Of a DNA stretch of 64,000 bases, positions 13,983 to 52,533 are shown piece by piece. The position numbers and the translations under genes were made by a program. Origin of the DNA: Bacteroides zhangwenhongii (GTDB taxonomy: Bacteria; Bacteroidota; Bacteroidia; Bacteroidales; Bacteroidaceae); NCBI RefSeq assembly GCF_009193325.2, contig NZ_CP059856.1, positions 558,001 through 622,000 on the forward strand. Direction: 5' to 3'. Position 1 is the stretch's first letter. Each line of letters opens with the position of its first letter. The notes beneath the pieces are model-generated. The model saw only the letters and a list, made by a program, of their open reading frames with translations. It did no database searches and was not told where the DNA came from.

Positions 13983-14011
13983 AGGTATCAACAGTATAAA
14001 TAATTGTAACA
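13983..14011 (+). promoter_or_regulatory. putative HTCS operator upstream of GH115 (two phased half-sites)
   Basis: Two 8-bp sites, AGGTATCA (13983-13990) and TTGTAACA (14004-14011), lie 21 bp apart. The second ends 31 bp before the first base of the -7 box. They match the array found at the other promoters of this PUL (consensus near ATGTWACA). Inference from position and repetition. Confidence 0.5.
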
Positions 14012-14041
14012 TACCAAAAGCCCGTTCTTATCAATACCAAC

Positions 14042-14049
14042 TATCTTTG
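14042..14049 (+). promoter_or_regulatory. -7 box of the GH115 gene
   Basis: TATCTTTG is an exact match to TAnnTTTG, 64 bp before the ATG of the GH115 gene. The 261-bp gap after murQ holds this box and the operator-like pair; otherwise nothing was recognised in it. Confidence 0.65.
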
Positions 14050-14112
14050 CATCGTGTCACAATACAAGTGGAATAATAAATAATTAACCACAAATTATTA
14101 AATATTGAAACC

Positions 14113-16650
14113 ATGAAAAAGTTATTTCTATTCTTCTACCTCTCTGTTGTGAGTATAGCGGCATTTGCCGCTGAACAATTTGTAATATTCACACCGGCCG
14201 GTAATCATTTTCCGTTGGTTGCCAACGGAGTTCCTTGTCCGATATACATAGATTCTTCCGAAGACAAAGGGGTAATGATTGCTGCCGGCAATCTTCAACA
14301 AGACATACTGCAGGTATGCGGAAAAAAGCCCGAACTCTTAACAGGCACAAGTTCGAAACAGTGTATCATTGCAGGTACTTATGGCACTCCTTTTATAAAG
14401 AAGCTGATGTCAGCAGGAAAAATAGACAAAAAGGAATTGGATGGAAAAAATGAAAAATACATCCTGCAAGTCATCGCCAATCCTTGTGAGGGAATAGATG
14501 AAGCGGTAGTTATCATCGGCAGCGACAGACGCGGCACTATTTATGGTATCTACGAGCTTTCTGAACAGATGGGAGTATCTCCCTGGTATTGGTGGGCAGA
14601 TGTCCCCGTCATGAAACAAGCAAATGTATATATTAAACCCGGACAATACTCGGACGGAGAGCCGGCCGTAACCTATCGCGGTATCTTTCTGAATGATGAA
14701 GCGCCGTGTCTTACCCGATGGGTAAAACACACATACGGCACCAACTATGGCGACCATCGTTTTTATGCACGGGTGTGTGAACTGATACTACGCCTGAAAG
14801 GTAATTTCCTTTGGCCGGCCATGTGGAGCTGGGCTTTCTATGCTGACGACCCGCAGAATAGTAAAACAGCAAGTGAAATGGGAGTCATTATCGGCACGTC
14901 CCACCACGAACCGATGGCACGCAACCATCAGGAATGGTCACGCAAGCGCAAAGAATATGGTGCATGGGATTATACAACTAACCAAAAAGTGATCGATCAG
15001 TTTTTCCGTGAAGGCATCGAACGGATGCAGGGTACAGAAGATATCGTAACCATCGGTATGCGCGGAGACGGTGACGCAGCCATGAGTAAAAGCACCAATG
15101 TGAAACTTCTGGAGAATGTAGTCAAGAATCAGCGCAAGATTATTGAAGAAGTCACCAAACGTCCGGCCAAAGAGACTCCGCAAGTATGGGCGTTGTATAA
15201 AGAAGTATTGGATTATTACGATAAAGGTATGCGTGTGCCCGATGATGTTATCATGCTATTGTGTGATGACAATTGGGGCAATGTATGCCGCCTGCCAAAT
15301 GCCAAGGAACGTAAGCATCCGGGCGGTTGGGGCATGTATTACCATGTAGACTACGTAGGTGCTCCGAGAAACTCCAAATGGCTGAACGTAACCCCTATAC
15401 AAAATATGTGGGAGCAACTTCAACTCACATACGATTACGGAGTAGAAAAGCTGTGGATACTGAATGTAGGCGATTTGAAACCAATGGAATATCCGATCAC
15501 GCTCTTCATGGATATGGCATGGAATCCCAAGCAATTCAACGTCTCCAACTTGCTGGAGCATCCCCGTCGTTTCTGCGCACAGCAGTTTGGCGAAGACCAG
15601 GCGGATGAAGCCATGCGAATCTTAAACCTGTACAGCAAATACAACGGCCGCGTGACGGGAGAAATGCTCGACCGGAATACTTATAACCTGGAGACCGGTG
15701 AATGGAAGCAGGTTTCCGACGAATATCTGAAACTGGAAGCGGAAGCTTTGAGACAATACATATCACTGAAACCGGAATATAAAGATGCCTACAAGCAATT
15801 AATCCTCTTCCCCGTTCAAGCCATGGCAAACCTGTACGAAATGTATTATGCACAAGCCATAAACCATAAATTGTACAAAGAAAACAATCCGCAAGCTAAC
15901 GAATGGGCAGATAAAGTGGAACAGGCTTTTGCACGGGATAAAGCGTTGAGTGACGATTATAACAACATTATGTCCGGCGGCAAATGGAAGAATATGATGA
16001 TTCAGAAACATATCGGTTATACCTCATGGAATGATAACTTCCCCGCTGATACACTGCCTAAAATCTACCGAATCGAAAATCCGGAAAAGGCTGTCGGCGG
16101 ATACGTCTTCACCGGACAAGACGGATATATAGCCATAGAAGCCGAACATTACTACAGCGCTAAAGCAGCGCCTGATACGGAATGGACAGTGATTCCCTAT
16201 ATGGGGCGTACCCTTAGTGGCATGGCTCTGATGCCTTACACACAACCAACTGACGGAGCTTCTATCTCCTACAAGATAAAGTTGCCTAAAGGAATTGACA
16301 AGGTGACTGTCCATGTGATAGTAAAATCAACTCTTGCTTTCCACGATCGCAAAGGACATGAGTATAGTATCGGATTTGAAGGAGGAAAGGATCAGACGAT
16401 CAATTTCAATCATAACTTAAACGAGCTTCCTGAAAATGTATACAGCATATACTATCCGACAGTCACACGACGCATCGTTGAGAAAAAAGCAAAACTGAAT
16501 GTACCGAATACATCAGACGGTATGCAAACAATCACTTTCAAACCTCTTGATCCGGGCATCGTGCTGGAAAAGCTAATCGTAGACTACGGAGGCTATAAGA
16601 AATCTTATCTGTTTATGAACGAATCGAAAAGTAAGAGAGAAAGTAGATAA
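14113..16650 (+). CDS. GH115 xylan alpha-1,2-glucuronidase
   Basis: An 845-residue secreted enzyme with an N-terminal signal peptide (MKKLFLFFYLSVVSIAAFAAE). The stretches YRGIFLNDEAPCLTRWV, RLKGNFLWPAMW and GTSHHEPMARNHQEW, followed by TIGMRGDGDAAMS, are hallmarks of family GH115. These enzymes remove glucuronic acid or 4-O-methyl-glucuronic acid from internal and terminal xylose residues of glucuronoxylan. The C-terminal part (about residues 660-845, YIAIEAEHYYSAKAAPDTEW and onward) forms the extra beta domain of the family. It is transcribed rightward at the edge of the PUL from its own promoter with the shared operator-like sites. Likely periplasmic or surface; signal-peptide type I rather than lipoprotein. 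Confidence 0.93.
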   Translation: MKKLFLFFYLSVVSIAAFAAEQFVIFTPAGNHFPLVANGVPCPIYIDSSEDKGVMIAAGNLQQDILQVCGKKPELLTGTSSKQCIIAGTYGTPFIKKLMSAGKIDKKELDGKNEKYILQVIANPCEGIDEAVVIIGSDRRGTIYGIYELSEQMGVSPWYWWADVPVMKQANVYIKPGQYSDGEPAVTYRGIFLNDEAPCLTRWVKHTYGTNYGDHRFYARVCELILRLKGNFLWPAMWSWAFYADDPQNSKTASEMGVIIGTSHHEPMARNHQEWSRKRKEYGAWDYTTNQKVIDQFFREGIERMQGTEDIVTIGMRGDGDAAMSKSTNVKLLENVVKNQRKIIEEVTKRPAKETPQVWALYKEVLDYYDKGMRVPDDVIMLLCDDNWGNVCRLPNAKERKHPGGWGMYYHVDYVGAPRNSKWLNVTPIQNMWEQLQLTYDYGVEKLWILNVGDLKPMEYPITLFMDMAWNPKQFNVSNLLEHPRRFCAQQFGEDQADEAMRILNLYSKYNGRVTGEMLDRNTYNLETGEWKQVSDEYLKLEAEALRQYISLKPEYKDAYKQLILFPVQAMANLYEMYYAQAINHKLYKENNPQANEWADKVEQAFARDKALSDDYNNIMSGGKWKNMMIQKHIGYTSWNDNFPADTLPKIYRIENPEKAVGGYVFTGQDGYIAIEAEHYYSAKAAPDTEWTVIPYMGRTLSGMALMPYTQPTDGASISYKIKLPKGIDKVTVHVIVKSTLAFHDRKGHEYSIGFEGGKDQTINFNHNLNELPENVYSIYYPTVTRRIVEKKAKLNVPNTSDGMQTITFKPLDPGIVLEKLIVDYGGYKKSYLFMNESKSKRESR

Positions 16651-16754: not shown

Positions 16755-16827
16755 GTGGAACATACACCATATATATTAGTAACATTTATATGGAAAGAAG
16801 TTACTTCCAAGGTAGATTTCAGAAACA
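16755..16827 (+). promoter_or_regulatory. putative HTCS operator upstream of GH95 (four phased half-sites)
   Basis: Sites GTGGAACA (16755), TAGTAACA (16777), AAGTTACT (16798) and CAGAAACA (16820) are spaced 22, 21 and 22 bp. The last ends 31 bp before the -7 box. The two middle sites keep the GTWAC core; the outer two are degenerate, so they count mainly through their spacing. Confidence 0.45.
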
Positions 16828-16857
16828 GTTTTTTGCCTTTTGTATTGGGAAATGAGC

Positions 16858-16865
16858 TACCTTTG
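16858..16865 (+). promoter_or_regulatory. -7 box of the GH95 gene
   Basis: TACCTTTG matches TAnnTTTG exactly and lies 17 bp before the ATG, giving a very short leader. A TTTTG at 16831-16835, 22 bp upstream, could be the -33 element. Confidence 0.65.
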
Positions 16866-16882
16866 CTACAAATCCATATAAT

Positions 16883-19315
16883 ATGAACAGAAACACTTTT
16901 TTTGTATTATTCCTATTAATAAGCAACCTTGTTTCAGGACAGGACCTGAAACTGTGGTATAGTCAACCTGCGCAAAATTGGTCGGAAGCTCTCCCTATTG
17001 GTAACTCCCGTCTTGGAGCCATGGTATATGGCGGAATCGAACGCGAAGAATTACAACTCAACGAAGAAACATTTTGGGCAGGTTCTCCATACAATAATAA
17101 TCCGAATGCCGTACATGTGCTACCGGTTGTACGCAAACTGATTTTTGAAGGGAGAAACAAGGAAGCGCAAAGACTCATTGACGCCAACTTCTTAACCCAG
17201 CAACACGGAATGAGCTATCTGACATTAGGTAGCCTTTATCTGGAATTTCCGGAACCCCAAAATGCATCCGGCTTTTACCGCGATCTGAACCTAGAGAATG
17301 CAACGACAACTACCCGTTATCAAGTGGATGACGTCACTTATACCCGCACCACTTTTGCTTCATTTACTGATGATGTCATTATTATGCATATCAAAGCAAG
17401 TAAAGCGAATGCACTGAACTTTACTATTGCATATAACTGCCCTCTAGTACATAAGGTGAATGTTCAGAATGATCAGCTGACCGTCACCTGTCAAGGGAAA
17501 GAGCAGGAAGGTTTGAAAGCTGCACTACGGGCAGAATGTCAAATCCAAGTAAAAACGAATGGCACTCTCCGCCCGACAGGAAATACTCTCCAAATAAATG
17601 AAGGAACAGAAGCCACCCTTTATATATCGGCAGCAACCAACTACGTAAACTACCAGGATGTCAGCGCCGATGAATCCCACCGAACCAGCGAATATCTGAA
17701 AAGAGCAATGCAAATACCTTACGAAAAAGCTCTCAAAAACCATATCGCTTATTATAAAAAACAATTTGACCGTGTACGCCTTACATTACCGGCAGGCAAA
17801 GCTTCCCAACTGGAGACTCCCAAACGAATTGAAAACTTCGGAAATGGGGAAGACATGGCAATGGCAGCTCTACTTTTCCATTATGGACGTTATCTGCTGA
17901 TTTCTTCTTCGCAACCGGGTGGGCAACCGGCTAATCTGCAAGGTATATGGAATAACAGTACTCATGCACCTTGGGATAGTAAATACACCATCAATATCAA
18001 TACAGAAATGAACTATTGGCCGGCAGAAGTCACTAATTTAAGTGAAACACATAGTCCGTTATTCTCTATGTTGAAAGATTTATCCGTCACAGGAGCAGAA
18101 ACAGCCCGAACCATGTATGATTGTCGGGGATGGGTGGCACATCATAACACTGACTTATGGAGAATCTGTGGTGTAGTCGATTTTGCAGCAGCCGGCATGT
18201 GGCCTAGCGGCGGCGCATGGTTAGCTCAACATATCTGGCAACATTACCTCTTTACAGGAAATAAAGAGTTCCTGAAAGAGTATTATCCCATCCTGAAAGG
18301 AGCAGCGCAGTTCTACATGGATTTCTTGGTAGAACATCCAGTGTATAAATGGTTGGTAGTGTCGCCTTCTGTGTCGCCGGAACACGGTCCCATCACTGCC
18401 GGATGCACCATGGATAACCAGATTGCTTTTGATGCACTGCATAATACCTTATTGGCTTCATACATCGCTGGTGAAGCCCCTTCTTTCCAAGACTCCCTCA
18501 AACAAACACTAGAGAAGTTGCCACCTATGCAAATAGGAAAACATAACCAACTACAAGAATGGCTTGAAGATATTGACAATCCCAAGGACGAGCACCGTCA
18601 TATTTCACATTTGTACGGGCTATATCCGAGTAATCAAATTTCTCCATACTCAAATCCCGAGTTATTCCAGGCAGCAAGAAACACATTGCTTCAACGCGGT
18701 GATAAGGCTACCGGTTGGAGTATCGGCTGGAAAGTCAACTTCTGGGCACGTATGCTGGATGGAAACCATGCCTTCCAAATCATCAAAAATATGATTCAAC
18801 TATTGCCCAACGATCACTTGGCTAAAGAATATCCGAACGGGCGTACCTATCCCAATATGCTGGATGCCCATCCGCCTTTCCAGATTGACGGTAATTTCGG
18901 TTATACAGCCGGAGTAGCGGAAATGTTGCTCCAAAGTCATGACGGTGCCGTACATTTATTGCCGGCATTGCCTGATGCATGGGAAGAAGGAAGTGTGAAG
19001 GGGCTGGTGGCACGTGGAAACTTTACTGTTGATATGGACTGGAAAAACAATGTGTTAAATAAAGCGATCATCCGGTCGAATATAGGCGGTACGCTCCGCA
19101 TCCGGTCTTATGTTCCCCTGAAAGGGAAAGGCTTAAAACAAGTAAACGGGAAAGAGTGCTCAAATAGATTATTCGCCACCACTCCTATCAAGCAACCTCT
19201 TGTAGCCAAAGGGGTAAGTGCGCAATCTCCCAAACTGCAGAAGGTTTATGAATATGACATCGAAACAAAGGCGGGTAAAACCTATATTGTAAATACAATC
19301 GAAGGAAAACAATAA
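16883..19315 (+). CDS. GH95 alpha-L-galactosidase / alpha-L-fucosidase
   Basis: An 810-residue enzyme with a type I signal peptide ending near residue 19 (LISNLVSGQ). After it, [48 protein letters not shown] and the run [11 protein letters not shown] are diagnostic of GH95. Likely catalytic residues are Glu500 in SVSPEHG and Asp669 in [11 protein letters not shown], with the Asn pair of NTEMNYW. GH95 enzymes are inverting alpha-1,2-L-fucosidases, but the member in the B. ovatus complex-xylan locus is an alpha-L-galactosidase that removes terminal L-galactose from corn xylan side chains. The xylan setting and the L-galactose-type operon at 54-58 kb favour L-galactose here; the sequence alone does not decide. 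Confidence 0.9.
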
Positions 19316-19342: not shown

Positions 19343-19371
19343 ATGTTACATTATTTACAAACGATGTTACA
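19343..19371 (+). promoter_or_regulatory. putative HTCS site pair upstream of the HTCS gene
   Basis: Two identical 8-mers ATGTTACA (19343-19350 and 19364-19371) lie 21 bp apart between GH95 and the HTCS gene, with the same motif and spacing as at the PUL enzyme promoters. A near-consensus TATATTTA at 19424-19431 lies 53 bp downstream, one period further than at the other promoters. This could mean autoregulation. Confidence 0.45.
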
Positions 19372-19473
19372 ACATCCGATTGTACTCCCGGAGCCTAATG
19401 AAAATATTCATTTTTTATTAGGTTATATTTAGGTTTTTAGTTTTCTTTGTACAACAAACAACGATCTATAACT

Positions 19474-22400
19474 ATGAAAAATGTATTCACTTTTCTATTA
19501 TTATTGTTTTCTTTGTTATGCAATGGACAATCTCCTAAGTTATTCACTACTGACAAAGAACTCTCCAGTAGTCTGATTAATCAAATATATCAAGACCGGA
19601 ACGGTTTCATTTGGATTGCAACAGAAGATGGTCTGAACCGTTATGACGGTGCTAAATTTACCATATACAAACATGAGCCCAATAACGAACATTCGTTAGC
19701 CCACAATTTTGTTCGTACTGTTTTTGAAGACAGCAAAGGTCATTTGCTTATCGGCACATATATAGGAATTCAAATGTATGATCCGGCCACGGACAATTTT
19801 ACTCCACTTGCCAAATTGGAAGATACCGGAGAAACGCTTGAAAGCAACATTAATTCTTTCATCGAGCGAAAAAACGGAGAGATATGGGTATCCGGAAATG
19901 TGTTGTGCAAGCTGGACATCAAAGACCATCTGTTGACTGTCCGGAAAGTCGATATTGCAGTCACTTCACCCGGAAGCCTGTTTGAAGATAAAAAACAAAA
20001 TGTATGGATGGCAAAAGGGGAAGAAGGAGTATATCAACTCACTCCCGACAATCAGCTTACGTTACACTTGTCTAAAGACAACGGATACGTCAAAAGTATA
20101 TGTGAGGATCAACGAGGCAACATTTATGTAGGAAGTATACGAAAAGGACTATTCATTTACGATAAAGAACGTAAAACCTTTGTTCCGGTCGATTTGAAAG
20201 AGAAAGGAGAACTTCCTGTTTGCTTCCTTTATTCCGGTATACCCAATGAATTGTATATCGGCACTGACGGCAAGGGAGTAGCCATTTATAATATCCGAAC
20301 ACACGAAATCTCCGAATACAAGTTTGACAATAATTATTTCGATTCGGGAAACTCAAAAATACACTCCATTCTAAAGGACAATTCGGGTAACTTATGGCTA
20401 GCTGTTTATCAGAAAGGAGTTATATTAATTCCGGCCCGCACCAACAGCTTTAAGTATATCGGACATAAATCAACAGATAAAAATTGCATAGGCTCCTGTT
20501 GTATTACTTCGTTCTGCAAAGATAATAACGGAACTTTATGGATAGGAACGGATAACGACGGTATTTATGCCCTTACAGAAAAATTAGAACCGGCAAAACA
20601 TTTCTCACACACCACCCATCCTCATTCAGTACCCTCAACTGTTATTAAATTGTATGAAGACTCCGAACACAATATGTGGATTGGCTCCTTTATCAACGGT
20701 ATGGGAAAGCTGAACAAACAGACAGGATTATGCGATTACCAGTACAAACTGGTAGATAAGAACAACAACTATATACAACGTGTATATGATTTCGCAGAAG
20801 ATAAAAACAAGCGTCTCTGGATTGCGACAATGGGATTCGGTTTGTTCTACTATGACCTGAAAACGAAAGAATTTACATCCGTACAATCTCAGACATCTCT
20901 AATCAACGAATGGATAGGTTGTCTGCACTATTCCGATGATAATAAACTGTATGTCGGAACTTATGACGGCGTCAACTGTATAGACCTTGACAGTCCTGAT
21001 TTTCAAAGTCATAAGATACTCTCACAAAATGTTATTTATTCAATCTTTGAAGATGACGAAGGAGTTGTCTGGTTGGGCAGTTCCGAAGGATTATCCGGTT
21101 GGAATAAAAATACGAAAGAACTAACCACTTATACTACTGCAGACGGATTGCCCAGTAATACAATATATGCCATACAAGGAGATGGAAAAGATTTTCTTTG
21201 GATAAGCACCAATGCCGGAATTTCCCAATTCCAAAAGAAAAACAACAAATTTATCAATTATTATGTCAGCGACGGATTACAGGGAAATGAGTTCTACAAG
21301 AATGCCTCCTTCAAAGATAAACAAGGTATTATCTGGTTTGGCGGAATGAATGGTATCACCTATTTCAATCCGCAAGACATTATCAATCCGGCAAAAACAT
21401 GGAATATCCGGATTACCGACTTTTTCCTGCATAACAATCCGGTTAGAAAAGGAATGAAATCCGGTATTCACAATATTATCAACTGCCCTGTATTCAACGC
21501 AAAAGAGTTTTATCTATCCCATAAAGACAATGTGTTCAGTATCGAGTTTGCCACTCTGGAATTAAATGCCCCCGAACACATCAACTACCTTTATTCTATC
21601 AACGATGAAAAATGGATTAGTTTGCCCAAAGGTGTAAACCGTATCTCATTCAGCAATCTGAAACCCGGTACCTATAACTTTAAAATCAGAGCAAAAGACA
21701 ACACTGTGTATTCAAATATAAAAGAAATTACCATCTTTATATCTCCTGCATGGTATGCTTCATGGTGGGCCAAAGTTATCTATTCCTTATTATTACTGAC
21801 CATTATATTTATCATTATTCTTCAGATCAGACATCGGTACAGAATGCATCAGGAAATGCTGCAACATATCCATGCCGAACAAATCAATGAAGCAAAATTG
21901 CAGTTCTTTATCAACATCTCTCATGAGATACGCACTCCGATGTCTCTAATCATCAGCCCTCTACAGAAACTGATTAAGAATGAGGACAACAATGAACGCC
22001 TGAAAATATATCATATTATCTACAGAAATGCGGAACGTATTCTGAATCTTGTCAATCAACTAATGGATATTCGGAAAATTGATAAAGGACAAATGTTCCT
22101 GATGTTCCGGGAAACCAACATTATTCCTTTTATTGAGGATTTATGTACAACTTTCAGTCAACAGGCAAATACAAAGAATATCCGGCTACAACTTCACAGT
22201 ACGCTCCGGGAACTGAATGTATGGGTAGACACAGGTAATTTTGATAAGATTATCCTGAATATTCTGTCTAATGCCTTCAAGTTTACTCCTGAAAAAGGAA
22301 ACATAGATATTACCATCCGTACGGGAGAAGATAATACACTGCCCGATCCCTTGAAACAATATGCCGAAATAATTATCGCGGATACCGGAACAGGCATCGA

Positions 22401-23505: not shown

Positions 23506-23514
23506 CTAGCATGT

Positions 23515-24903: not shown

Positions 24904-24910
24904 GCTATTT

Positions 24911-26845
<1,935 letters not shown>

Positions 26846-26848
26846 TTA

Positions 26849-28174: not shown

Positions 28175-28212
28175 AATTTCATCAATCTATTTAATTACAT
28201 CTATTTAAAATA

Positions 28213-28243
28213 ATAGCGGAGCTCTATCGAGAGACTCCGCTAT
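28213..28243 (-). terminator. intercistronic hairpin between GH10 and GH5 genes
   Basis: Arms ATAGCGGAG and CTCCGCTAT form a 9-bp GC-rich stem with an inner stem in the loop. On the transcribed (minus) strand it is followed by an A/T-rich stretch with a TTATTTT run. It sits in the 127-bp gap downstream of the GH10 stop. It may be a partial terminator or an RNA-stability element separating xus-GH10 from the downstream enzymes. Confidence 0.5.
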
Positions 28244-28301
28244 CCGGACGAGCGTGCCTAATCTAAATCAGCATAAACTACATGATAGTTCTCTATCTCA
28301 T

Positions 28302-30500: not shown

Positions 30501-30519
30501 ATTCTTCTAGATTTAACGA

Positions 30520-31587: not shown

Positions 31588-31604
31588 TATTTATTATTTT
31601 ACAA

Positions 31605-33392: not shown

Positions 33393-33425
33393 AATTTCGT
33401 TCTTTAATTATTGAAATAATCTGTA

Positions 33426-36260: not shown

Positions 36261-36302
36261 TGTTTATTCATTTATAATTATACATTCAGTAACCATAAGG
36301 AA

Positions 36303-38303: not shown

Positions 38304-38313
38304 AGTACTTTGA

Positions 38314-41463: not shown

Positions 41464-41583
41464 TAGTTTAAGATGTTAATTAACCACATTGTTTTCTAAT
41501 CATCATTCTTTTTTTAATTGCACTAGCCGTCATTATAAATACCACTCATAGTTACTAGTATTAGATTTATATAAAAAAAATAA

Positions 41584-43317: not shown

Positions 43318-43368
43318 AATACCTCTTATTTTCTTTATAATCAAATATGAATTACTGATCTTTTTCTG

Positions 43369-43376
43369 CAAAGATA
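43369..43376 (-). promoter_or_regulatory. -7 box of the long xus operon
   Basis: On the minus strand the sequence is TATCTTTG, an exact TAnnTTTG match, 52 bp upstream of the GH43 start at 43317. It is the only consensus box seen before the genes running to 23515. Confidence 0.65.
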
Positions 43377-43405
43377 TGCCAGCTCATAAAACTACAAACA
43401 TAATT

Positions 43406-43475
43406 ATGTTACGAGCTTCTTTTCCAAAATAACATCTTCATTTTCAATGTTACATCTATCTTTTCCCTTGTAGCA
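43406..43475 (-). promoter_or_regulatory. putative HTCS operator of the xus operon (four phased half-sites)
   Basis: Read on the + strand: ATGTTACG (43406), AAATAACA (43427), ATGTTACA (43447) and TTGTAGCA (43468), spaced 21, 20 and 21 bp. The proximal site begins 30 bp from the -7 box. The first and third are strong matches; the second and fourth are degenerate. Confidence 0.55.
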
Positions 43476-43498: not shown

Positions 43499-45088
43499 TC
43501 AATGTATTACATTTCTACTTTTTTTATAATGAAAGAAATCAATATCCACATATCCACCTTTCGTTTTCGTAGCATAATTGAATATGGCAAACTTTGTTCC
43601 CATAAAAAACTTGGTAAAATCAAACTTCATTTTGAAATCCTGTCCGACCTTTATCCATTTGCGATTATCCAAACTATAATAGAAAGTAGCCAAATCACGA
43701 TGCTGACTAAAATCACAGTCAATACGCAGATAAATCATATTCTGATCCAAGCCTATCCGCTCTTCCTCAACAGCGTCAACTTTCAGAATCGCTTTGTCAG
43801 AATCATTCAATTCTACAACATTCGTACTCATTGTGAGATATTTCTTATTTCCATCCATTATTATAGACAATAACCCCGAATCCCCGTTAAATGCACTAAA
43901 TCCGGCGACATCCCCATCTTTCATGTGGGATATATCCATAGAAATAGTTCCACTACACGCAGGTCCTTCCATACGCTGTGTGATGGTATTGGGAGCAGCA
44001 TACAAATTATCGACTATCCGATCCGTCTTAAGTCGCAAGTAACCGGGACGTTCACTCAAGGACCAGAAATCGTTCATCGGATTATGGTTCCACTGCCAGT
44101 TAAGCTTTAACTTGGAGACATCAAAATCATCACTTACCACCAAAGGGATTTCCGGATAGCCTTGAATCGGCTTCTCCATCACCAAAGGTACATGTCCATT
44201 TTCATCCCCCAGCATCGGCCAACCGTCTACCCAACGACATGGCATCAAGGTAGGAACACGTCCCACTCCGTTACGGTCTTGAAATATCATGCCATACCAA
44301 CGACCGTCCGGTGTATCAACAATATTCCCTTGTCCCACTCCTCCATACGTATCAAAAGCATCTTCTAAAATCACGTTCTTTTTATATGGCCCGGTTATAT
44401 TATCAGCACGATAACATACCTCTCTGCGGATGCCATTTCTCGGCCATGAAATCATCAACAAATAATACTTTCCATTATGTTTTATCACCTGGCTTCCCTC
44501 CAACAGTCCATTCTCCGTCTCGTCACGTTCGAAGATTTTCATATTGACACCATTGGGTTGCACTCCTGAAAGATCACTCTTTAGTTCAACAAGAGAGCCT
44601 GTCCCGTAAAAAATATACACTTTACCATCATCATCGAAGAAAAGAGATGCATCATGAAAATGCGGTGTACGGGATACCAACTCCCACTTACCGGCCGGGT
44701 CAGTTGTCGAATAAATATATCCTTTGTGCGGCTTGTCATTAGGGGAAAAGAATACATAAAACTTACCATTATGATAACGAATCGATGACGCCCATTGTCC
44801 CCGTCCATAGACAGTACCGTCTTTCAGGTCATAATTCGGAGTATCCGTCAGTTTATCAAATACATAACCTACAATTTCCCAATTTACAAGATCTTTTGAT
44901 TTCATGACAGGCGCTCCGGGCATCAGATGCATTGTAGTACTGATCATATAAAAATCATCACCTACCCTAATCACAGACATATCAGGAACGTCCGCATAAA
45001 TAACCGGATTACGAAATGTATCACTTGCATATCCCATTATCCCGGATAGTAGTAACAAAAACAAAACAAACAGTTTTCTCATGACCAT
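43499..45088 (-). CDS. GH43 glycosidase (arabinofuranosidase/xylosidase type)
   Basis: A 529-residue secreted enzyme; signal peptide MVMRKLFVLFLLLLSGIMGYAS, with the ATG at 45082 as an alternative start. Catalytic pattern: base Asp in YADVPDMSVIRVGDDFYM, second Asp in HFHDASLFFDDDGKVYIFYG and acid Glu in GLLEGSQVIKHNGKYYLL. The C-terminal ~190 residues (LNWQWNHNPMNDFWSLSERPGYL onward) are a concanavalin-like sandwich. The sequence differs from the other three GH43 proteins here (HLMPGAPVMKSKDLVNW, YGRGQWASSIRYHNG) and fits the GH43_12-like group, usually alpha-L-arabinofuranosidases. It is the last gene of the upstream block before the xus promoter. Confidence 0.9.
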   Translation of the reverse strand: MVMRKLFVLFLLLLSGIMGYASDTFRNPVIYADVPDMSVIRVGDDFYMISTTMHLMPGAPVMKSKDLVNWEIVGYVFDKLTDTPNYDLKDGTVYGRGQWASSIRYHNGKFYVFFSPNDKPHKGYIYSTTDPAGKWELVSRTPHFHDASLFFDDDGKVYIFYGTGSLVELKSDLSGVQPNGVNMKIFERDETENGLLEGSQVIKHNGKYYLLMISWPRNGIRREVCYRADNITGPYKKNVILEDAFDTYGGVGQGNIVDTPDGRWYGMIFQDRNGVGRVPTLMPCRWVDGWPMLGDENGHVPLVMEKPIQGYPEIPLVVSDDFDVSKLKLNWQWNHNPMNDFWSLSERPGYLRLKTDRIVDNLYAAPNTITQRMEGPACSGTISMDISHMKDGDVAGFSAFNGDSGLLSIIMDGNKKYLTMSTNVVELNDSDKAILKVDAVEEERIGLDQNMIYLRIDCDFSQHRDLATFYYSLDNRKWIKVGQDFKMKFDFTKFFMGTKFAIFNYATKTKGGYVDIDFFHYKKSRNVIH

Positions 45089-45132
45089 ATTCTTGATATA
45101 TAAAATTAAAAAACAATTGCTGTGTATTGGAA

Positions 45133-46461
45133 CTATTTAAATTCCCAATAATCCAAATTGAAAAGTTTCTTCCCTTTCTCTCCCTTAAAACAAAAATAAA
45201 GATCATGCACCCTTTTGGCATTCTTTATCTTGCATGACATCAGTTTATAGATATCCATTCCTCCTGTAGAAGATATGCTGATATTACCAACTATCTGTCC
45301 GTCAACACCGTCCAAACGAATCTCAATATTTCCTCCTTTTTCAATGCAGGCAGCGCTGACACTAAACTTCTTCGCCCCTTTTGCTCCAAAATCAACACCT
45401 CGCACACACAAGTATTCATCATTGTCAATATCTGTCACATATAAACCTCCATTCTCTAAATTCCCGGTCTTCAGCCCATACCCCCAAGCCATCGTTTCAG
45501 CCTCCACTCTGCGATAAGGATTAAAGGTCCCGATTTGCTCCAGTTTTGTATCCTGCCAATAGGGGACTTCCTGAATTGTCCCATCCGGATTATAATGCAT
45601 TTTTGCAACAGATACCGAACGCCGCTCTTTATGATCGAAAGTCTCCAGATGAAGCAAATCATAATTTAGGCCAAACACATACGAGTCCCCCTTATAATCA
45701 ATAATTCCGGGGTGATTGCCTCTGGTTCTTTCCGTAGGACGCATGATATATCCTTCTGTAACCCATGGACCGGTAGCCTTGTCACTCATGGCATAGCCAA
45801 TACCTTCCGGGCAACAAGTTGAAGCAAAAGCCATATAATAATGTCCGTTCCGCTTATACGTCCAAGGTCCTTCCTGATAATGTTCCGGCTTATCAGCCAG
45901 TTGTACGATTTCTCCCGAATAAGAAACCATATCCTCATTCAGTTTCACGTAATAGACATTTGGATTGCCCCAATACATATAGGCTTGCCCGTCATCATCA
46001 ATAAATACGGTAGGGTCGATATCATCCCAATGCTCTTTTTGCCATACTAACGGTTTATTCAAAGGGTCTTTGAAAAGACCGTAAGGAGAGTCGGATACCA
46101 ATACGCCGATACCATTACCGTGAATCGGGCAATACATATAAAATTTACCATTACGTTCGATGACTTGCTCTGCCCAGGCACCGTTATCACGCTTCACCCA
46201 ATTGAAACTCTTCAAGGAAGCGACTGCACCATGATCCGTCCAGTTTACCATGTCTGTAGAAGTATAAAGCAGCCAGTCCAGCATTTTGAAACCTTCGGCA
46301 TCATCCTCATCATGAGTGGTATAAAGAAAAACGGTATCATTATATACCATTGGAGCCGGATCAGCGGTATATTTTGTCTGGATAATAGGATTTTGTGCCG
46401 TTCCCGAAACAGCCATCATAACCAACAGGAGTGATACACCCCAAAAATTCAAGTTTTTCAT
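45133..46461 (-). CDS. GH43 glycosidase with C-terminal CBM6 (paralogue of 23515-24903)
   Basis: A 442-residue secreted protein with a signal peptide (MKNLNFWGVSLLLVMMAVSGTAQ). The propeller shows the base Asp in KYTADPAPMVYND, the second Asp in DIDPTVFIDDDGQAYMYWG and the acid Glu in HYQEGPWTYKRNGHYY. The C-terminal RVEAETMAWGYGLKTGNLENG region through CFKGEKGKKLFNLDYWEF is a CBM6-like module. Layout and many blocks match the enzyme at the other end of the PUL, pointing to an old duplication with likely different linkage preferences. Gaps to neighbours are 44 bp and 17 bp, consistent with one operon with GH97 and the other GH43 genes. Confidence 0.9.
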   Translation of the reverse strand: MKNLNFWGVSLLLVMMAVSGTAQNPIIQTKYTADPAPMVYNDTVFLYTTHDEDDAEGFKMLDWLLYTSTDMVNWTDHGAVASLKSFNWVKRDNGAWAEQVIERNGKFYMYCPIHGNGIGVLVSDSPYGLFKDPLNKPLVWQKEHWDDIDPTVFIDDDGQAYMYWGNPNVYYVKLNEDMVSYSGEIVQLADKPEHYQEGPWTYKRNGHYYMAFASTCCPEGIGYAMSDKATGPWVTEGYIMRPTERTRGNHPGIIDYKGDSYVFGLNYDLLHLETFDHKERRSVSVAKMHYNPDGTIQEVPYWQDTKLEQIGTFNPYRRVEAETMAWGYGLKTGNLENGGLYVTDIDNDEYLCVRGVDFGAKGAKKFSVSAACIEKGGNIEIRLDGVDGQIVGNISISSTGGMDIYKLMSCKIKNAKRVHDLYFCFKGEKGKKLFNLDYWEFK

Positions 46462-46478
46462 ATTCTATCAGTTTAAAG

Positions 46479-48422
46479 TTATTGGGTTATTAATATTCCA
46501 CCATTGCAAGGAATGGCCAATTGCAATTCTTGTTTCTTACCTATTTCTATTTGTTTTACGCTACCCTGCAATGCCTTATCATCACCATACAGTCTCACCT
46601 TTTCTCCATTGGAGAACATCGGCAAATTAATTTTAAGTTTCAGTGTTTCCTTCTGCGCATTTACTCCGGCAATATACCATTTATCTCCATGACGACGGGC
46701 AAGAATAACGTATTTGCCAGGATAACCATCTATGAAACGTACCTCATCCCAAGTCGTTGGGACCTCTTTCATAAAATCAATTGCCCACGCAGGAGCATCA
46801 GTCAAATTATTCGGTGCCAAAGCGAAATGTTGTACCGGACTTTGAAATAAAACCGCCGTAGCCAATGCAAAGACATCTGATGTCACCCGTCGACTTCCTC
46901 GTGGAGCATTATCCGCATTGTAATATTTGTTCAATGCACTACCTCCGAAATCCATGCTACCTACCGTGTTACGGATAAACGGATGCAGGGTGGCATTAAA
47001 AGCCTCATGATCACAGCTACCTTGAGAGAAATGAAGATTTTCACTAGCCAACACAGCTTCACTCGATGCGTAGTTAGGAAACATATGTTCCCAACCACGA
47101 GGCAAAGTACATCCATGAAAAATAACCAGAAGGCCGTACTCGTTTGCATCCGCCAAGATATCCTCATACAACTGCATAGTCATTTGCTTGTCACCTCCGA
47201 AAAAGTCAACTTTTATTCCGCGGATACCAATGCTTTGCATCCATTTCATCTCCTTACGTCTGGCTATCGCATTATCCATAATACCTCTCGGAGTTTGCGG
47301 AGCATCATTCCAATACCCATTCGAATTATACCACAAATAAAGAGCTACCCCTTTGTCCTTCCCATATTTAGCCAATTCTTCAATTTTATCACGCCCAATT
47401 TGTTTATCCCACAAGGCATCGACCAACACAGATTGATACCCCATCGCTGCCGAGAAATCAATATACCGGAGTTGCTCTTTGTAATTAGTACTTCCATCCA
47501 TACCGATAATCCAGCTCCATGAACCCCGGCCATACGTATACTCTCCTTTTGCCGGATAAAGCGGTTTTACAACATCAAAAGGAACGGTCGTCTCCACTAT
47601 GGGAGCCAAAGTCTTACCTAAAGTAATAGTACGCCAAGGCGTCTCGCCCGGTAATGCTATCCCCGGAGAAACCGTACCATTCCCATTCGCTTCACCTTCT
47701 TGCGGAAATCCAATGGTATATACTCCTCCTTTTTGTCCCAACAGACGGCTCGCACAATATCCGCCATTTACTCCCGTTTCGGAAACAAGCACCCAACCGT
47801 TATCTCCATTACGGAACAGACAGGGAAATGTATATCCTTCTCCCCAGCCATTTTTCCCTGCGACATCATCTGCTGTATAAGACGTCTCATAACTTGGAGA
47901 AGTACGGGCAAATCCCCCCATCGGTTTACTTTGCGGACAAAGGAAAGTGGTGGTTCCGTCAGGAAACGCAAATCCTGTGGCTTCCTTCCTAATCACGCAA
48001 CTTTGTGTCTCACCTTGCGGATACATCTTATATTTAAAAGCAATATCATTATTACTTATGCGGAATATAACATCATAAACTGTTTTCCCTTGTTGTGTAA
48101 ACAAAAATACAGCTTCATTCGCCACATAATGAACCTTGCTCTGTTTAATAGAAGGTAGCTCATAGGTTTCATCTATTTCGTTTATTGAAACATTTTTCTC
48201 TAGCGACATCCCGGATGAAAAATCTCCGATATTTGCAACAATCCCCAATGGAGATGGCCCTAAAAAGAGAACATTGTCATAACTAACAGAATAAGAGGGT
48301 CTCCCATCTCTATCCGAAACTGTTACCACCAGCTTCCCATCAGGACTTGCTATCTGTTTATCTTCTGCACTCGCAACGCTACTAACCAATAACATAGCCA
48401 TTGCTATAAAAAATTTCATCAT
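46479..48422 (-). CDS. GH97 alpha-glycosidase, probably retaining (alpha-galactosidase type)
   Basis: A 647-residue secreted enzyme from the ATG at 48422 (MMKFFIAMAMLLVSSVASAED); an upstream in-frame ATG at 48461 precedes the signal peptide and is less likely. The N-terminal beta-supersandwich (IASPDGKLVVTVSDRDGRPSYSVSYD) leads to a (beta/alpha)8 barrel (GMDGSTNYKEQLRYIDFSA, YLWYNSNGYWND). GIKVDFFGGDKQ places an Asp (about 406) at the position of the nucleophile of retaining GH97 enzymes, which are alpha-galactosidases or related, rather than the inverting SusB-type glucosidases. In this locus it would trim alpha-galactosyl decorations of complex xylan. A C-terminal small domain (GNGEKV-like, LRLKINLPMFSNGEK region) ends the protein. 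Confidence 0.88.
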   Translation of the reverse strand: MMKFFIAMAMLLVSSVASAEDKQIASPDGKLVVTVSDRDGRPSYSVSYDNVLFLGPSPLGIVANIGDFSSGMSLEKNVSINEIDETYELPSIKQSKVHYVANEAVFLFTQQGKTVYDVIFRISNNDIAFKYKMYPQGETQSCVIRKEATGFAFPDGTTTFLCPQSKPMGGFARTSPSYETSYTADDVAGKNGWGEGYTFPCLFRNGDNGWVLVSETGVNGGYCASRLLGQKGGVYTIGFPQEGEANGNGTVSPGIALPGETPWRTITLGKTLAPIVETTVPFDVVKPLYPAKGEYTYGRGSWSWIIGMDGSTNYKEQLRYIDFSAAMGYQSVLVDALWDKQIGRDKIEELAKYGKDKGVALYLWYNSNGYWNDAPQTPRGIMDNAIARRKEMKWMQSIGIRGIKVDFFGGDKQMTMQLYEDILADANEYGLLVIFHGCTLPRGWEHMFPNYASSEAVLASENLHFSQGSCDHEAFNATLHPFIRNTVGSMDFGGSALNKYYNADNAPRGSRRVTSDVFALATAVLFQSPVQHFALAPNNLTDAPAWAIDFMKEVPTTWDEVRFIDGYPGKYVILARRHGDKWYIAGVNAQKETLKLKINLPMFSNGEKVRLYGDDKALQGSVKQIEIGKKQELQLAIPCNGGILITQ

Positions 48423-48486
48423 ATTTCTATTTTTTAGATTCTTCAAAGGATGTATTTTCATAATTACAGAATGATAAAGTTTCTAA

Positions 48487-50214
48487 TTAATTACCAACAG
48501 ATGTTGCATACAGGCCGATCATTGCACCTGTAAAGCCACCAGCCACATTAGTAGAAAGAATATCACCGGAAACGGTTCCTCCTAAATTTATAAAACTTTT
48601 GCCATCAGTCGAATAATTAAAACGATAATCATCTCCATTGGCTGTTACTTGCAGTGTCACAGGTTTCTCTATCTCTATCTTCACCTCGCCTAGAACACTT
48701 GTTTGCCCTTTTTCGGTTCTTTGCAGTATCAGATAATAGTCTTTTTCTTTTTTAGTAATACCGAAAACGTAGTGATATCTTTCATTCTGATAACATGTTA
48801 CACCGGCAAAATCTTTCTCATTTTTCGGTTTGTACTCCATTGTCGCTGCCGCTGTAAATTGATTATGCTGCTGGCGGTAGAACAAGGTAGAAGTAGGTTT
48901 CACTTCATTGATATTTGTGGTAAAAGGAATGATTCGCAAACCTTTACCGGTAATATCCACGAATTCCTCACGAGGACCTCTAAGACCGATCCATCTAAAA
49001 TCCAATGTCTTATCGGAGAAATCATCCTTAAAGACAAAGTTACCACTAGGCAAATAACCATTTTGCCCTGTTTGGTTCTCTACTCCTGAAGGCATCTTCA
49101 ATGTAGGTTTCATAGGAATAAGCCCATTCTCAAAAACAGGAAATGTTCCGCTCCAGTCCACCGAAAGAATAAAAGTTTCACGTCCGGTATTCACTCTATT
49201 CTTCTCATTGGGACGTATCCCCAAAAATACACCATAATATTTTCCATCCGGTCCCTCCACTAAGTCTGCATGACCAGCCCAGTCTACTTTATTCACCCGG
49301 TTTGCAGGAAAATAACGCTGGGTGAGAATCGGATTGTTACTTGCCGGAAGATAAGGTCCTTTCGGATAATCACTTACAAAAATCACTTCACTATGCCAGC
49401 CTCCGGTTCCACCTTCCGCACACATCAAATAGTAACGTCCATCTTTCTTATAGATATGAGGAGCTTCAATCCATATTGGCTTTTCTTCTATATTGATGCC
49501 ACCATTGACAATGATCCGGTCCGATCCCGGAACCACTTTATCATTCTCCACATCATAATCCCATATTTTTATGACACGGTGTCCTGAGTAACATTCATTT
49601 GCTTTAGCAGGAGCATCATTATGCACCACGTATGCCTTGCCATTATCATCAAAGAAAAGAGAAGGATCAATGCCTTCAAATTGAAGTTTGACCGGATCAC
49701 TCCAACCATTCTCCGGATTCTTTGTCTTTACCACCATATTTCCAAAGCCACCGGAAAATTGAGTGGTTATCATATAAAACGTATCATTATTGGGATTATA
49801 TCTTATAGCAGGAGCATATACACCTGCACTAATACCGCAATCTTCAACCTTTAATTGTGACGTTCTGTCCAGCACATGACCGATTTGTTTCCAGTTGACC
49901 AAATCATTAGAATGAAAAATAGGTACCCCGGGAAACATAGCAAAAGATGAGCATACTAAATAATAATCATTACCTTTCCGCGTTATACTCGGATCGGGAT
50001 AGCAACCCTGCAAAATAGGATTATAGAACTCACCCGGCTTTAAAGGATTGTTTTGATAAATAGCATCCTCCCCCTGATAAATAAATTGCGTAAAGACAGG
50101 AGCATTTTTCGTTATTTTACCCTTGCCACTCACCTCCATATTAAAAAACAGCATAATAAATACGACAAGGCCCACGGATTGACAGCCCGACAAAATCAAT
50201 TTTAATGTTCTCAT
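48487..50214 (-). CDS. GH43 glycosidase with C-terminal beta-sandwich (paralogue of 41584-43317)
   Basis: A 575-residue exported enzyme; hydrophobic N-terminus SVGLVVFIMLFFNMEVSGKG acts as signal peptide. Catalytic pattern: base Asp in GCYPDPSITRKGNDYYLV, second Asp in GIDPSLFFDDNGKAYVVH and acid Glu in WIEAPHIYKKDGRYYLM. The C-terminal ~200 residues, from FSDKTLDFRWIGLRGPREEF, form a concanavalin-like domain and end GGFTGAMIGLYATS, almost the same ending as the paralogue. It is the first gene of the second leftward enzyme operon (GH43, GH97, GH43-CBM6, GH43), with a consensus -7 box and a four-site operator-like array upstream. Confidence 0.9.
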   Translation of the reverse strand: MRTLKLILSGCQSVGLVVFIMLFFNMEVSGKGKITKNAPVFTQFIYQGEDAIYQNNPLKPGEFYNPILQGCYPDPSITRKGNDYYLVCSSFAMFPGVPIFHSNDLVNWKQIGHVLDRTSQLKVEDCGISAGVYAPAIRYNPNNDTFYMITTQFSGGFGNMVVKTKNPENGWSDPVKLQFEGIDPSLFFDDNGKAYVVHNDAPAKANECYSGHRVIKIWDYDVENDKVVPGSDRIIVNGGINIEEKPIWIEAPHIYKKDGRYYLMCAEGGTGGWHSEVIFVSDYPKGPYLPASNNPILTQRYFPANRVNKVDWAGHADLVEGPDGKYYGVFLGIRPNEKNRVNTGRETFILSVDWSGTFPVFENGLIPMKPTLKMPSGVENQTGQNGYLPSGNFVFKDDFSDKTLDFRWIGLRGPREEFVDITGKGLRIIPFTTNINEVKPTSTLFYRQQHNQFTAAATMEYKPKNEKDFAGVTCYQNERYHYVFGITKKEKDYYLILQRTEKGQTSVLGEVKIEIEKPVTLQVTANGDDYRFNYSTDGKSFINLGGTVSGDILSTNVAGGFTGAMIGLYATSVGN

Positions 50215-50262
50215 ATTATCACTTTTTATTTTCTATAATTTCCTGTTCCATAGTAGTGATGG

Positions 50263-50270
50263 CAAATGTA
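50263..50270 (-). promoter_or_regulatory. -7 box of the GH43-GH97 operon
   Basis: On the minus strand TACATTTG, an exact match to TAnnTTTG, 49 bp upstream of the GH43 start at 50214. Confidence 0.65.
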
Positions 50271-50300
50271 TTGATTTGATTTCATCGTATCTGAATAATC

Positions 50301-50370
50301 ACGATACAGGCTTCTATATAGAGGTTACATTTATCACAGACATGTAACATTCTTCTTTCTTGGTGTTACA
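50301..50370 (-). promoter_or_regulatory. putative HTCS operator of the GH43-GH97 operon (four phased half-sites)
   Basis: Read on the + strand: ACGATACA (50301), AGGTTACA (50322), ATGTAACA (50342) and GTGTTACA (50363), spaced 21, 20 and 21 bp. The proximal site begins 31 bp from the -7 box. This is the clearest array of the set. Confidence 0.6.
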
Positions 50371-51026: not shown

Positions 51027-52432
51027 TTATTGCACGTTCATCACTATCGCTTTCAATTTATTTTTATCGGAAGAGCCTCCATACAGCAATTCATAAGTAC
51101 CTGCCACCGGATGCATTGTATTAGTCGCCTCATCAAACCATTCGAAACTCTCATGTGTAAGAGGAATAGTTACTGATTTTGTTTGCCCGGCAGGAATATG
51201 GACACGTTTGAAAGCACGCAGGGTATAACGGGGGCCGTCTTTATCTGCCGGAGATCGCAGATAAACCTGAACCACTTCATCTCCGTCCCGCTGCCCTACA
51301 TTACTTACCGGAACAGTTAACATAGCTGTTTCTCCTTTTCCAATCGTATTCTTACCCAGATTAGCCTCACCATAAATAAACGTTGTATAACTCAGCCCAT
51401 ACCCGAATGGGTAAAGTGGTTGCTGTTGTATATATCGATAAGTACGTCCCTTCATGGAATAATCTTCGAAGTCCGGCAACTGACCGGCATCCTTATAGAA
51501 AGTGACCGGTAAACGTCCTGCCGGGTTATAATCTCCAAACAGTACATCTACAATAGCCGTACCACCTGCCTGACCCGGATACCACGCCTGCAAAATTGCC
51601 TCACAAGTATTTGATTCCGGCACTAATCCGATGGCTGAACCGGAATAATTGATAAAGACTACTTTCTTTCCAGCTTTCTTCAAGGTCCTCAGCAAGTCGC
51701 GCTGAACAGCAGGAAGTTCAATATCCGTACGGTCGCCTCTTTTACATCCGCCTTCTGCACCAAGTCTTTGAAAGCCGGTAGGTAAGTCTCCCATAAATCA
51801 CGGGGAGCAATATTCTCCGCATCAAAACTGTGGCGGTTCCACTCCGGTCCGGAATGGACTGCGAAGTGTTTGGCACAAGCATGCAGTTTGTCGTATTTAC
51901 TATCCTCCGGTCCCTGCAAACCACGAACAACGGCCATCTCCAGTTGTCCCGTCAGATAAGGGTCTTCACCATAAGTCTCCTGTCCACGTCCCCAACGAGG
52001 ATCACGGAATATATTTACATTCGGCGTCCAGAATGTTAGTCCCTGATAGCGTTTTAAGACACCGTTTTCACTGAAAATACGGGATTTCACACGAGCCTCA
52101 TCGGACACAGCGTCGAAAACCTCATATAATAACGAATCATTAAAAGAAGCCCCCATACCGATAGCCTGGGGAAAAACTGTGGCCAACCCTGCGCGTCCGA
52201 CTCCGTGTAACGCTTCATTCCACCAGTCATACTCTTTGATTCCCAAACGCGGAATAGCGGGTGAGGCATTCTGCATGAGTGCAACTTTCTCTTCCAGAGT
52301 CAATCGGGGCAATAAATCTTCCGCCCGCTGTTCAGCCGTTAAAGAAGTGTCTTGATAAGGTAATTTTTGAGCGCAAGAAAAAAGCAAAGAGAGACTGCAT
52401 ACTCCAAGCGCAAATTTTAGTCCTGTATTCAT
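51027..52432 (-). pseudogene. GH3 beta-xylosidase-type gene broken by an internal out-of-frame deletion
   Basis: The N-terminal 249 residues are intact from the ATG at 52432: lipobox SLLFSC, then LTLEEKVALMQNASPAIPRLGIKEYDWWNEALHGV, TFWTPNVNIFRDPRWGRGQE and CAKHFAVHSGPE. After AFKDLVQKADVKE the frame runs into unrelated residues and stops at 51689. In another frame, from about 51737, the GH3 C-terminal part resumes as GDRTDIELPAVQRDLL and continues through YPFGYGLSYTTF and a fibronectin-III-like end to 51027. The two pieces total about 485 residues against roughly 860 for the family. The missing stretch would carry the catalytic Asp (SDC/SDW motif) and start of the second domain. The promoter and operator-like sites are intact, so loss is probably recent. 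Confidence 0.85.
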
Positions 52433-52467
52433 GTTATTACATATTAGTAGGTTATCTTGTTTCAACG

Positions 52468-52475
52468 CAAAGTTA
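52468..52475 (-). promoter_or_regulatory. -7 box of the GH3 pseudogene
   Basis: On the minus strand TAACTTTG, an exact TAnnTTTG match, 36 bp upstream of the ATG at 52432. Its presence supports 52432 as the original start. Confidence 0.6.
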
Positions 52476-52504
52476 ACGGATTTCAGCCAATAGTATATAT
52501 AATC

Positions 52505-52533
52505 ATGTATCAAAGACTTGTATTCGTGTTACA
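52505..52533 (-). promoter_or_regulatory. putative HTCS operator upstream of GH3 (two phased half-sites)
   Basis: ATGTATCA (52505-52512) and GTGTTACA (52526-52533) on the + strand are 21 bp apart, and the proximal one begins 30 bp from the -7 box, the same geometry as at the other PUL promoters. Confidence 0.5.

Follow-up and report, generated by a model that had tools for sequence, protein, structure and literature searches.

How can one membrane sensor switch on xylan-degrading operons that lie apart from one another on a chromosome? The question is raised by a 64,000-nucleotide stretch of the Bacteroides zhangwenhongii genome (the window; contig NZ_CP059856.1, positions 558,001 to 622,000), which carries a polysaccharide utilization locus (PUL) for xylan and the gene of a hybrid two-component system (HTCS) sensor-regulator, HTCS-L. 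An initial annotation had noticed phased copies of a short motif before the -7 box of five promoters, named here after the genes they precede (GH115, GH95, xus, GH43-GH97 and GH3), and had proposed them as the code of an HTCS regulon. Our analysis supports this proposal and predicts a regulon wider than the one described, with six further promoters elsewhere in the genome. Judged by sequence, it is highly probable that the xylan-sensing HTCS-L has its operator in these arrays, which its paralogue HTCS-S, in a second xylan PUL, very likely uses as well. The evidence computed here consists of the comb, its register, its specificity for xylan genes, its conservation and a match with the recognition helix of the regulator.

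Geometry of the site arrays

Read in the direction of transcription, 7-mers resembling TGTWACA start at -37, -58, -79 and -100 (±1) from the first base of an exact TAnnTTTG box. All five promoters have a site at -37 or -38 and a second at -58 or -59; a third is present at -78 to -80 in three, and a fourth at -99 or -100 in two of those. The gap between the innermost 7-mer and the box is 30, 30, 30, 31 and 30 bases for GH115, GH95, xus, GH43-GH97 and GH3, respectively. Direct reading thus confirms the two to four phased sites, the fixed 30-31 bp gap and the coordinates given in the initial annotation, and the geometry holds on both strands relative to transcription. Some sites had been called degenerate, and single copies do range from perfect to 5/7, with GH115 and GH95 the weakest promoters. 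The five promoters, with matches out of seven at -37/-58/-79/-100 and E-values from the held-out model described below, are as follows.

13984..14049 (+), GH115 promoter, read directly: two sites, 13984-13990 (GGTATCA, 5/7) and 14005-14011 (TGTAACA, 7/7); -7 box TATCTTTG at 14042-14049; matches 7, 5, 3, 3; E 0.085
16778..16865 (+), GH95 promoter, read directly: three sites, every one degenerate, 16778-16784 (6/7), 16799-16805 (5/7) and 16821-16827 (5/7); box TACCTTTG at 16858-16865; matches 5, 5, 6, 2; E 0.021
43369..43475 (-), xus-operon promoter, read directly: four sites, 43407-43413 (6/7), 43428-43434 (5/7), 43448-43454 (7/7) and 43469-43475 (6/7); box TATCTTTG at 43376-43369; matches 6, 5, 7, 6; E 3.0e-6 genome-wide
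50263..50370 (-), GH43-GH97 operon promoter, read directly: four sites, 50302-50308 (5/7), 50323-50329 (6/7), 50343-50349 (7/7) and 50364-50370 (7/7), with an additional ATGCAACA at -141; box TACATTTG at 50270-50263; matches 5, 6, 7, 7; E 2.3e-6
52468..52533 (-), GH3 promoter, read directly: two sites, 52506-52512 (6/7) and 52527-52533 (7/7); box TAACTTTG at 52475-52468; matches 6, 7, 3, 4; E 0.080

The window has 78 TAnnTTTG boxes. When each was given a score for in-register sites, the five named promoters took ranks 1 to 5 (25, 24, 20, 18 and 18; next, 17), a ranking that is not blind because the earlier reader had picked them for their arrays. Among 407 control boxes from 20 segments of 20 kb, spaced evenly over this genome (400 kb in all), a score of 18 was reached once and all others were 17 or less; the best control box therefore equals the two weakest named promoters. 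No site pair of at least 13/14 at the spacing of the arrays was found in the same 400 kb. The summed score of the five was 105, as compared with 67.3 ± 4.4 in 4000 dinucleotide shuffles (maximum, 83; z 8.6), and none of 1000 shuffled sets that were free to pick their own register and period reached it (maximum, 89). The sum peaked at a period of 21, within the 20-22 bp first reported, and at the observed register, a shift of -1 lowering it from 105 to 102. Taken singly, xus and GH43-GH97 were matched by 0 of 4000 shuffles and GH3 gave p 0.00025.

The boxes themselves look like true promoters because, across 43 array promoters, positions outside the selected letters are also biased, to TA[CT][AC]TTTG[CT]. 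The -33 element of the Bacteroides housekeeping promoter is TTTG. No conserved column was found at -30 to -20 in the 43 promoters (0.33 bits or less), and TTTG occurs there in 12 of them versus 24 of 142 control boxes, most of which are perhaps not promoters.

Search of the genome and its relatives

We trained a model, on sequence alone, with 23 promoters of other Bacteroides, excluding this genome, that of B. xylanisolvens XB1A and five close genomes; of the 43 promoters 24 were eligible, and the one at L130 1537 was omitted. In a scan of the complete genome (5.3 Mb) the model scored 150 of 2468 first-look candidates, and its E-values are rough. Of the 29 rows listed, 14 have E < 0.1. They fall at 13 places, and 12 of these are xylan loci, the two HTCS promoters, or a GH30 or GH35-like gene; the single off-target place (2515111) lies at the end of a SusC gene. 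All five named promoters and the array upstream of HTCS-L were recovered, GH115 and GH3 being the two weakest rows under this threshold. So were promoters of the second xylan PUL (an esterase-MFS-GH10-GH43-GH67 operon, SusC, HTCS-S and GH43), an isolated GH30 gene and an isolated GH35/GH42-like DUF5597 gene. These last two are orphans outside PULs; otherwise the arrays precede operons of PULs that also encode an HTCS. A model search of the window alone missed xus and GH3 under default filters and found all five with the filters off. The initial annotation had suggested a matrix scan of the genome and of orthologous loci, and arrays are indeed present at xylan genes elsewhere in the genome and in relatives. 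The GH30 array occupies 5018850-5018918 (L158 6854-6919), in register. The DUF5597 array, at 4171794-4171895 (L371), lies far from both xylan PULs, and kin of this GH35-like gene in two other genomes also have in-register arrays.

Exact pairs of TGTWACA give a simpler count. At a spacing of 13-15 there are seven in the whole genome and none of the reversed pattern, and seven of the 12 exact pairs at any spacing from 3 to 33 have a spacing of 14. Outside the window they lie at 3151901, 4725307/4725328, 4738525 and 5018853, and at three of these four places the neighboring gene has, on its own strand, an exact TAnnTTTG precisely in register. The pair at 3151901-3151928 (L157) is near a hexapeptide-repeat transferase gene. 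When 60 genomes of the genus were searched with the box distance left free (18-48), 14 genomes gave a total of 21 matches, and 11 of these matches combine a spacing of 14 with a gap of 30.

We also picked exact pairs without regard to promoters and asked whether the boxes in the next 160 bp were in register. They were so in 15 of 18 non-redundant cases, versus 1.35 expected, and with looser sites the figures were 25/36 and 33/51. The sequence tested (768 kb) comprised the window, loci L155-L158 of this genome and loci of relatives. As these had been chosen for arrays or HTCS orthologues, and as orthologous promoters with less than 72% identity count as separate cases, the cases are not fully independent. 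The same phased pattern upstream of unrelated genes would have spoken against a regulon code; control boxes, exact pairs and the whole-genome model all show it to be less frequent there.

The sites are conserved. Over eight promoter groups, whose members were partly selected by score, changed positions numbered 85/668 in sites, 236/1002 in spacers and 203/718 at -30 to -1. A Pfam scan of 20 genes downstream of arrays in other genomes returned GH115, CE15 glucuronoyl esterase, other esterases, GH43, GH95, GH5, GH31, GH35-like and SusC-type genes, with one sub-threshold GH30 match (L168); a leucine-rich-repeat gene (L129) has an array out of register. TGTWACA is palindromic, so one comb could serve two divergent promoters, and at two places it stands in register with the -7 box of each (L211 9441/9592 and L197 19175/19348). 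In the direction of transcription the middle base of 107 stronger sites is A in 74, T in 32 and C in 1. These sites read aTGTAACAt, with weak A-richness some 12-15 bases downstream, as would be expected if the first recognition helix of the regulator reads the core and the second adds little.

TGTWACA pairs with a shorter period of 11 bp (spacing 4) form a second class, seen at 2106866 and 5104494 in this genome and at 2256774, 2386323 and 6061283 in genome G021 and C62:39642 and C73:84501 in genome G053. It was set aside, as the two copies in this genome share just 19 bases and no wider similarity; it is possibly the site of another factor.

The genes around the arrays, with families assigned by Pfam, are listed below.

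14113..16650 (+), GH115 alpha-glucuronidase gene (PF15979)
16883..19315 (+), GH95 gene (PF22124)
19344..19371 (+), exact pair TGTTACA-N14-TGTTACA upstream of the HTCS gene, overlooked in the initial annotation
19447..23493 (+), HTCS-L sensor-regulator gene: propeller sensor, Y_Y_Y, HisKA, HATPase, REC and AraC-type DNA-binding domain, recognition helix SRVHLHRKLKELTNQ; the listed open reading frame (ORF) starts at TTG, the first in-frame ATG lying near 19474
23515..43371, all (-), genes downstream of the xus promoter: GH43, SusC, SusD, plug-domain protein, SusD, BT_3987-like, GH10-CBM4, GH5-like, esterase and GH43-CBM6, which by orientation and spacing presumably form an operon; the listed ORF start at 43371 is a TTG within the promoter
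43499..50214 (-), GH43, GH97, GH43-CBM6 and GH43 genes downstream of the GH43-GH97 promoter
51027..52513 (-), broken GH3 gene, split between ORFs 51027-51794 and 51689-52513, whose frames differ

The array before the broken GH3 gene is retained in the window; the XB1A counterpart (L161) is an 861-residue ORF. Adjoining GH3 in XB1A is an extra array-bearing GH43 gene (L161 3798-5402), where the window has an AAA_14/DUF4143 gene instead (52690-53895). At 62485-63786 the window holds a 433-residue ORF with a terminal AraC-like domain (29% identical to the HTCS domain), just before a SusC gene that lies outside it.

The regulator and the rival explanations

The genome has 38 matches to AraC-type domains, 30 of which were compared. 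In recognition helix 1, HTCS-L and HTCS-S are identical at 14 of 15 residues, whereas the other 28 domains agree at 10 at most; in helix 2 the pair agrees at 6 of 14, and the two proteins are 49% identical. We then asked where this helix occurs together with the sites, taking as the helix type at least 12/15 residues, a cut-off fixed after the helices had been viewed. Among 65 HTCS loci (all 30 of a first set and 35 of 80 of a second, the 45 excluded in advance of the count being mostly non-Bacteroidales or kinase-part matches), a site pair lay nearby in 30 of 40 with the helix type versus 1 of 25 without it. Made non-redundant at 90% domain identity, with L010 and L040 corrected as one contig, the counts were 22/31 versus 1/24 (Fisher p 3e-7), and at 80% they were 17/25 versus 1/24. 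Positive loci include Prevotella, Parabacteroides and Saccharicrinis. The exact pair upstream of HTCS-L, one of the seven in the genome, is also present in 5 of 5 aligned relatives. It stands at -59/-80 from TATATTTA at 19424 or at -77/-98 from TTTCTTTG at 19442, which suggests autoregulation with a different geometry.

Genetic data on a close relative bear on the same question. Despres et al. (2016) disrupted the HTCS of XB1A, a 99% identical orthologue of HTCS-L, by insertion, and all six PUL 43 genes tested fell in expression (PMC4855328). In a second cluster, rPUL 70, four of the five genes tested were reduced (BXY_46590-46620; GH67, GH10, sugar transporter and GH2), while the SusC gene BXY_46550 was not, and BXY_46630 (GH13) was not over-expressed on xylan (PMC4855328). 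Remnants of the rPUL 70 type are described as lacking regulatory genes (PMC4855328). We find in XB1A a three-site array and box (score, 26) immediately upstream of SASA/GH2_N, MFS, GH10 and GH67 genes, with a GH13 gene on the other side; the match of these genes to the BXY locus tags is based on their families and order. Responding and nonresponding genes thus appear to be divided by the array, and direct control of rPUL 70 by the HTCS would be the simplest reading of the PUL 43-rPUL 70 cross-regulation. HTCS-S was not found in XB1A: in a search with HTCS-L (130 matches, all 147 candidates scored) the next full-length match after the 99% orthologue was 31% identical and none exceeded 32%, so that HTCS-S appears to be absent, though 3826 bases of the array-bearing stretch (L159) read N and a hidden gene there is conceivable.

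Several observations weigh against the arrays being a common HTCS operator. GH115 (p 0.018) and GH95 (p 0.02) are marginal in single-promoter shuffles. The pair at 3151901 has no box in register, no exact TAnnTTTG is in register with the pair upstream of HTCS-L (19344-19371), and the HTCS-S sites are 2 bp off register (-35/-56). Reversed controls are not empty outside this genome: seven relatives have 43 exact pairs (spacing 13-15) and 7 of the reversed pattern, and the free-distance pattern gave 4 matches in the 60 genomes when reversed, as compared with 21. The relatives are, moreover, non-independent samples, and several of their loci were chosen because they bear arrays. In-register arrays also precede a GH32 gene (L125, genome G048), outside the xylan theme, and a gene without a Pfam family (L119). 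No pair was found at 10 of the 40 loci with the right helix, of which two (L028 and L030) score 22-24 in a looser register test, and the late choice of the helix cut-off counts here too. Finally, Despres et al. left open whether the control of rPUL 70 is direct or indirect (PMC4855328).

These points give some room to other explanations. Chance, in the form of AT-rich intergenic DNA and a short common core, has practically no probability: it could produce GH115 or GH95 individually (p about 0.02), but for the set it is ruled out by the shuffles, the box-blind test, the control boxes and the held-out whole-genome model. We regard as very improbable a second explanation, in which the sites belong to the global Crp-like regulator BT4338 (Cur), with the arrays as a mark of control by carbon limitation. 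BT4338 is a DNA-binding activator of carbohydrate genes (PMC3878776; PMC6989115), and its palindrome, wwwTATGTTnTAnAACATAwww, has letters in common with ATGTTACAT, the half-site TATGTT/AACATA being like ATGTWACAT. However, the 15 array sites score 6-9 of 14 against the Cur core, like background (95th percentile, 9), and none of the nine matches of at least 11/14 in the window falls on them, for which reason identity with the TATGTTnTAnAACATA palindrome was rejected. One Cur-core match (16749) covers a weak TGGAACA at -102, upstream of the GH95 array. Cur is also a global regulator, whereas the pairs concentrate at xylan genes, and its palindrome yields no 21-bp comb.

It is also unlikely, to a high degree, that the HTCS induces another AraC-type regulator which in turn binds the comb. 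Knockout data cannot by themselves separate direct from indirect control (PMC4855328), and the 38 AraC-type domains offer candidates; yet in several genera arrays are found with the HTCS gene itself, where their presence follows the type of its own recognition helix, and HTCS-type proteins of other PULs bind predicted promoter sites in vitro (PMC11253607). The most probable of the alternatives, though we still think it improbable, is a division of labor, in which HTCS-S alone runs the second PUL, HTCS-L only that of the window, and the shared motif is ancestral. Each HTCS adjoins arrays, the second helices differ (6/14 identical), and B. ovatus is described as controlling its two xylan PULs by different signals (PMC4491172). 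Against this, helix 1 is nearly invariant (14/15) and the site words are the same, and in XB1A, where HTCS-S was not found, the core of the second PUL still depends on the PUL 43 HTCS (PMC4855328). A common operator for HTCS-L and, very likely, HTCS-S therefore remains our preferred reading.

Proposed mechanism and known systems

If the arrays are the operator of HTCS-L, a periplasmic xylo-oligosaccharide would lead to autophosphorylation and phosphotransfer to the receiver domain, freeing the AraC-type domain. Its first helix-turn-helix would read TGTWACA and the second would contact the A-rich stretch more weakly, with two to four subunits lined up head to tail along a single face of the DNA at intervals of 21 bp (two turns). 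The innermost 7-mer, 37 bp before TAnnTTTG, would lie just upstream of where a -33 element would be. As the comb is locked at this position, the innermost subunit may replace that element and hold RNA polymerase, like class II AraC-type activators; the lack of a conserved column at -30 to -20 is weak evidence for such a replacement. Direct binding by HTCS-L, this class II contact and a role for copy number are what we infer from the arrangement. Since the same comb precedes unlinked operons, one sensor could switch on several PULs. Residues 1163-1166 in the receiver loop of HTCS-L are NHIP, as in HTCS-S, while 84% of HTCS sequences have Ser or Cys at the first position of this S/C-HIP motif (PMC11253607); NHIP may change how the DNA-binding domain is inhibited. 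By sequence, the C-terminal part of HTCS-L is closest to PDB 12aw chain A, a solved HTCS receiver and DNA-binding fragment (E 3e-55).

A more general rule is conceivable, and we hold it only slightly less probable than its opposite: independent of the word that an HTCS reads, its 21-bp comb may keep a fixed position, -37/-58 from the -7 box, while the number of copies and divergent sharing serve as further settings. In an exploratory test with one null model, we measured self-similarity at a lag of 21 before SusC genes, divided into short and long by ORF length (cut, 1100 residues) as a proxy for the STN domain. Only genes with an exact box within 330 bp enter the test, which leaves 28 boxes at 21 of the 56 listed SusC genes of this genome; because these were so few, two further genomes were added, each with 30 of 56 listed genes. 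At short SusC genes (54 non-redundant boxes, 40 genes, three genomes) self-similarity was highest at -37 (4.54, as compared with 3.82 ± 0.145 in cross-promoter pairs, where 1 of 2000 shuffles was as high), with near-equal values from -33 to -40, and long SusC genes (7 boxes, 5 genes) gave none. Lag 21 was also somewhat raised at -26 to -22, and lag 30 in register, which speaks against the rule. If it is true, the motif of any HTCS could be read from its promoters without comparative genomics, and the spacing could help to decode other HTCS promoters and guide the design of glycan-inducible expression parts for commensal Bacteroides. For the xylan system, the arrays offer a direct-binding account of the PUL 43-rPUL 70 cross-regulation, predict orphan members (GH30 and GH35-like) and provide a concrete and cheap test of the way in which a single membrane sensor coordinates xylan clusters that are unlinked, in bacteria dominant in the gut.

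The proposed arrangement resembles that of AraC at I1-I2, where subunits sit head to tail about 21 bp apart next to the promoter. AraC, however, uses two half-sites with an E. coli -35 box, in contrast to up to four sites with a Bacteroides -7 box here. The direct repeats of XylRA belong to a LacI/AraC-type xylose regulator of Vibrio, not an HTCS (PMC12125979). The 21-bp repeats themselves, which the initial annotation had read as sites of an AraC-type HTCS domain, are borne out but are not a new type of signal: Ravcheev et al. predicted in 2013 HTCS motifs that are direct repeats averaging 21 bp apart, for 16 HTCSs of B. thetaiotaomicron (PMC3878776). The xylan word, the multisite comb, the fixed promoter distance and an operator shared across PULs were not found in the open-access papers searched; the 2003 XynR paper on Prevotella bryantii could report a site.

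The likeness to the motifs of Ravcheev et al. extends to AraC-type HTCSs, repeats of about 21 bp upstream of PUL operons and the sharing of motifs by related HTCSs; the accessible text of that study gives two conserved sites for each motif, and no xylan HTCS, four-site comb or fixed distance to a -7 box (PMC3878776). Our arrays show features of such operators: tandem sites repeated about 21 bp apart, a PUL and HTCS context, conservation with orthologues and a motif that varies with the DNA-binding domain. PUL 43 and rPUL 70 of XB1A share with our system the same HTCS (99%), orthologous genes and a knockout that lowers both clusters, but the accessible text of that study describes no binding motif, the word "motif" occurring in it once (PMC4855328). 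Gao, Wu and Stock (2024) observed promoter binding by BT4124 and BT4663 in electrophoretic mobility shift assays, and relief of inhibition by phosphorylation (PMC11253607). These regulators have the same REC and AraC-type domains as HTCS-L, whereas they serve other glycans (PMC11253607) and HTCS-L has NHIP in place of S/C-HIP.

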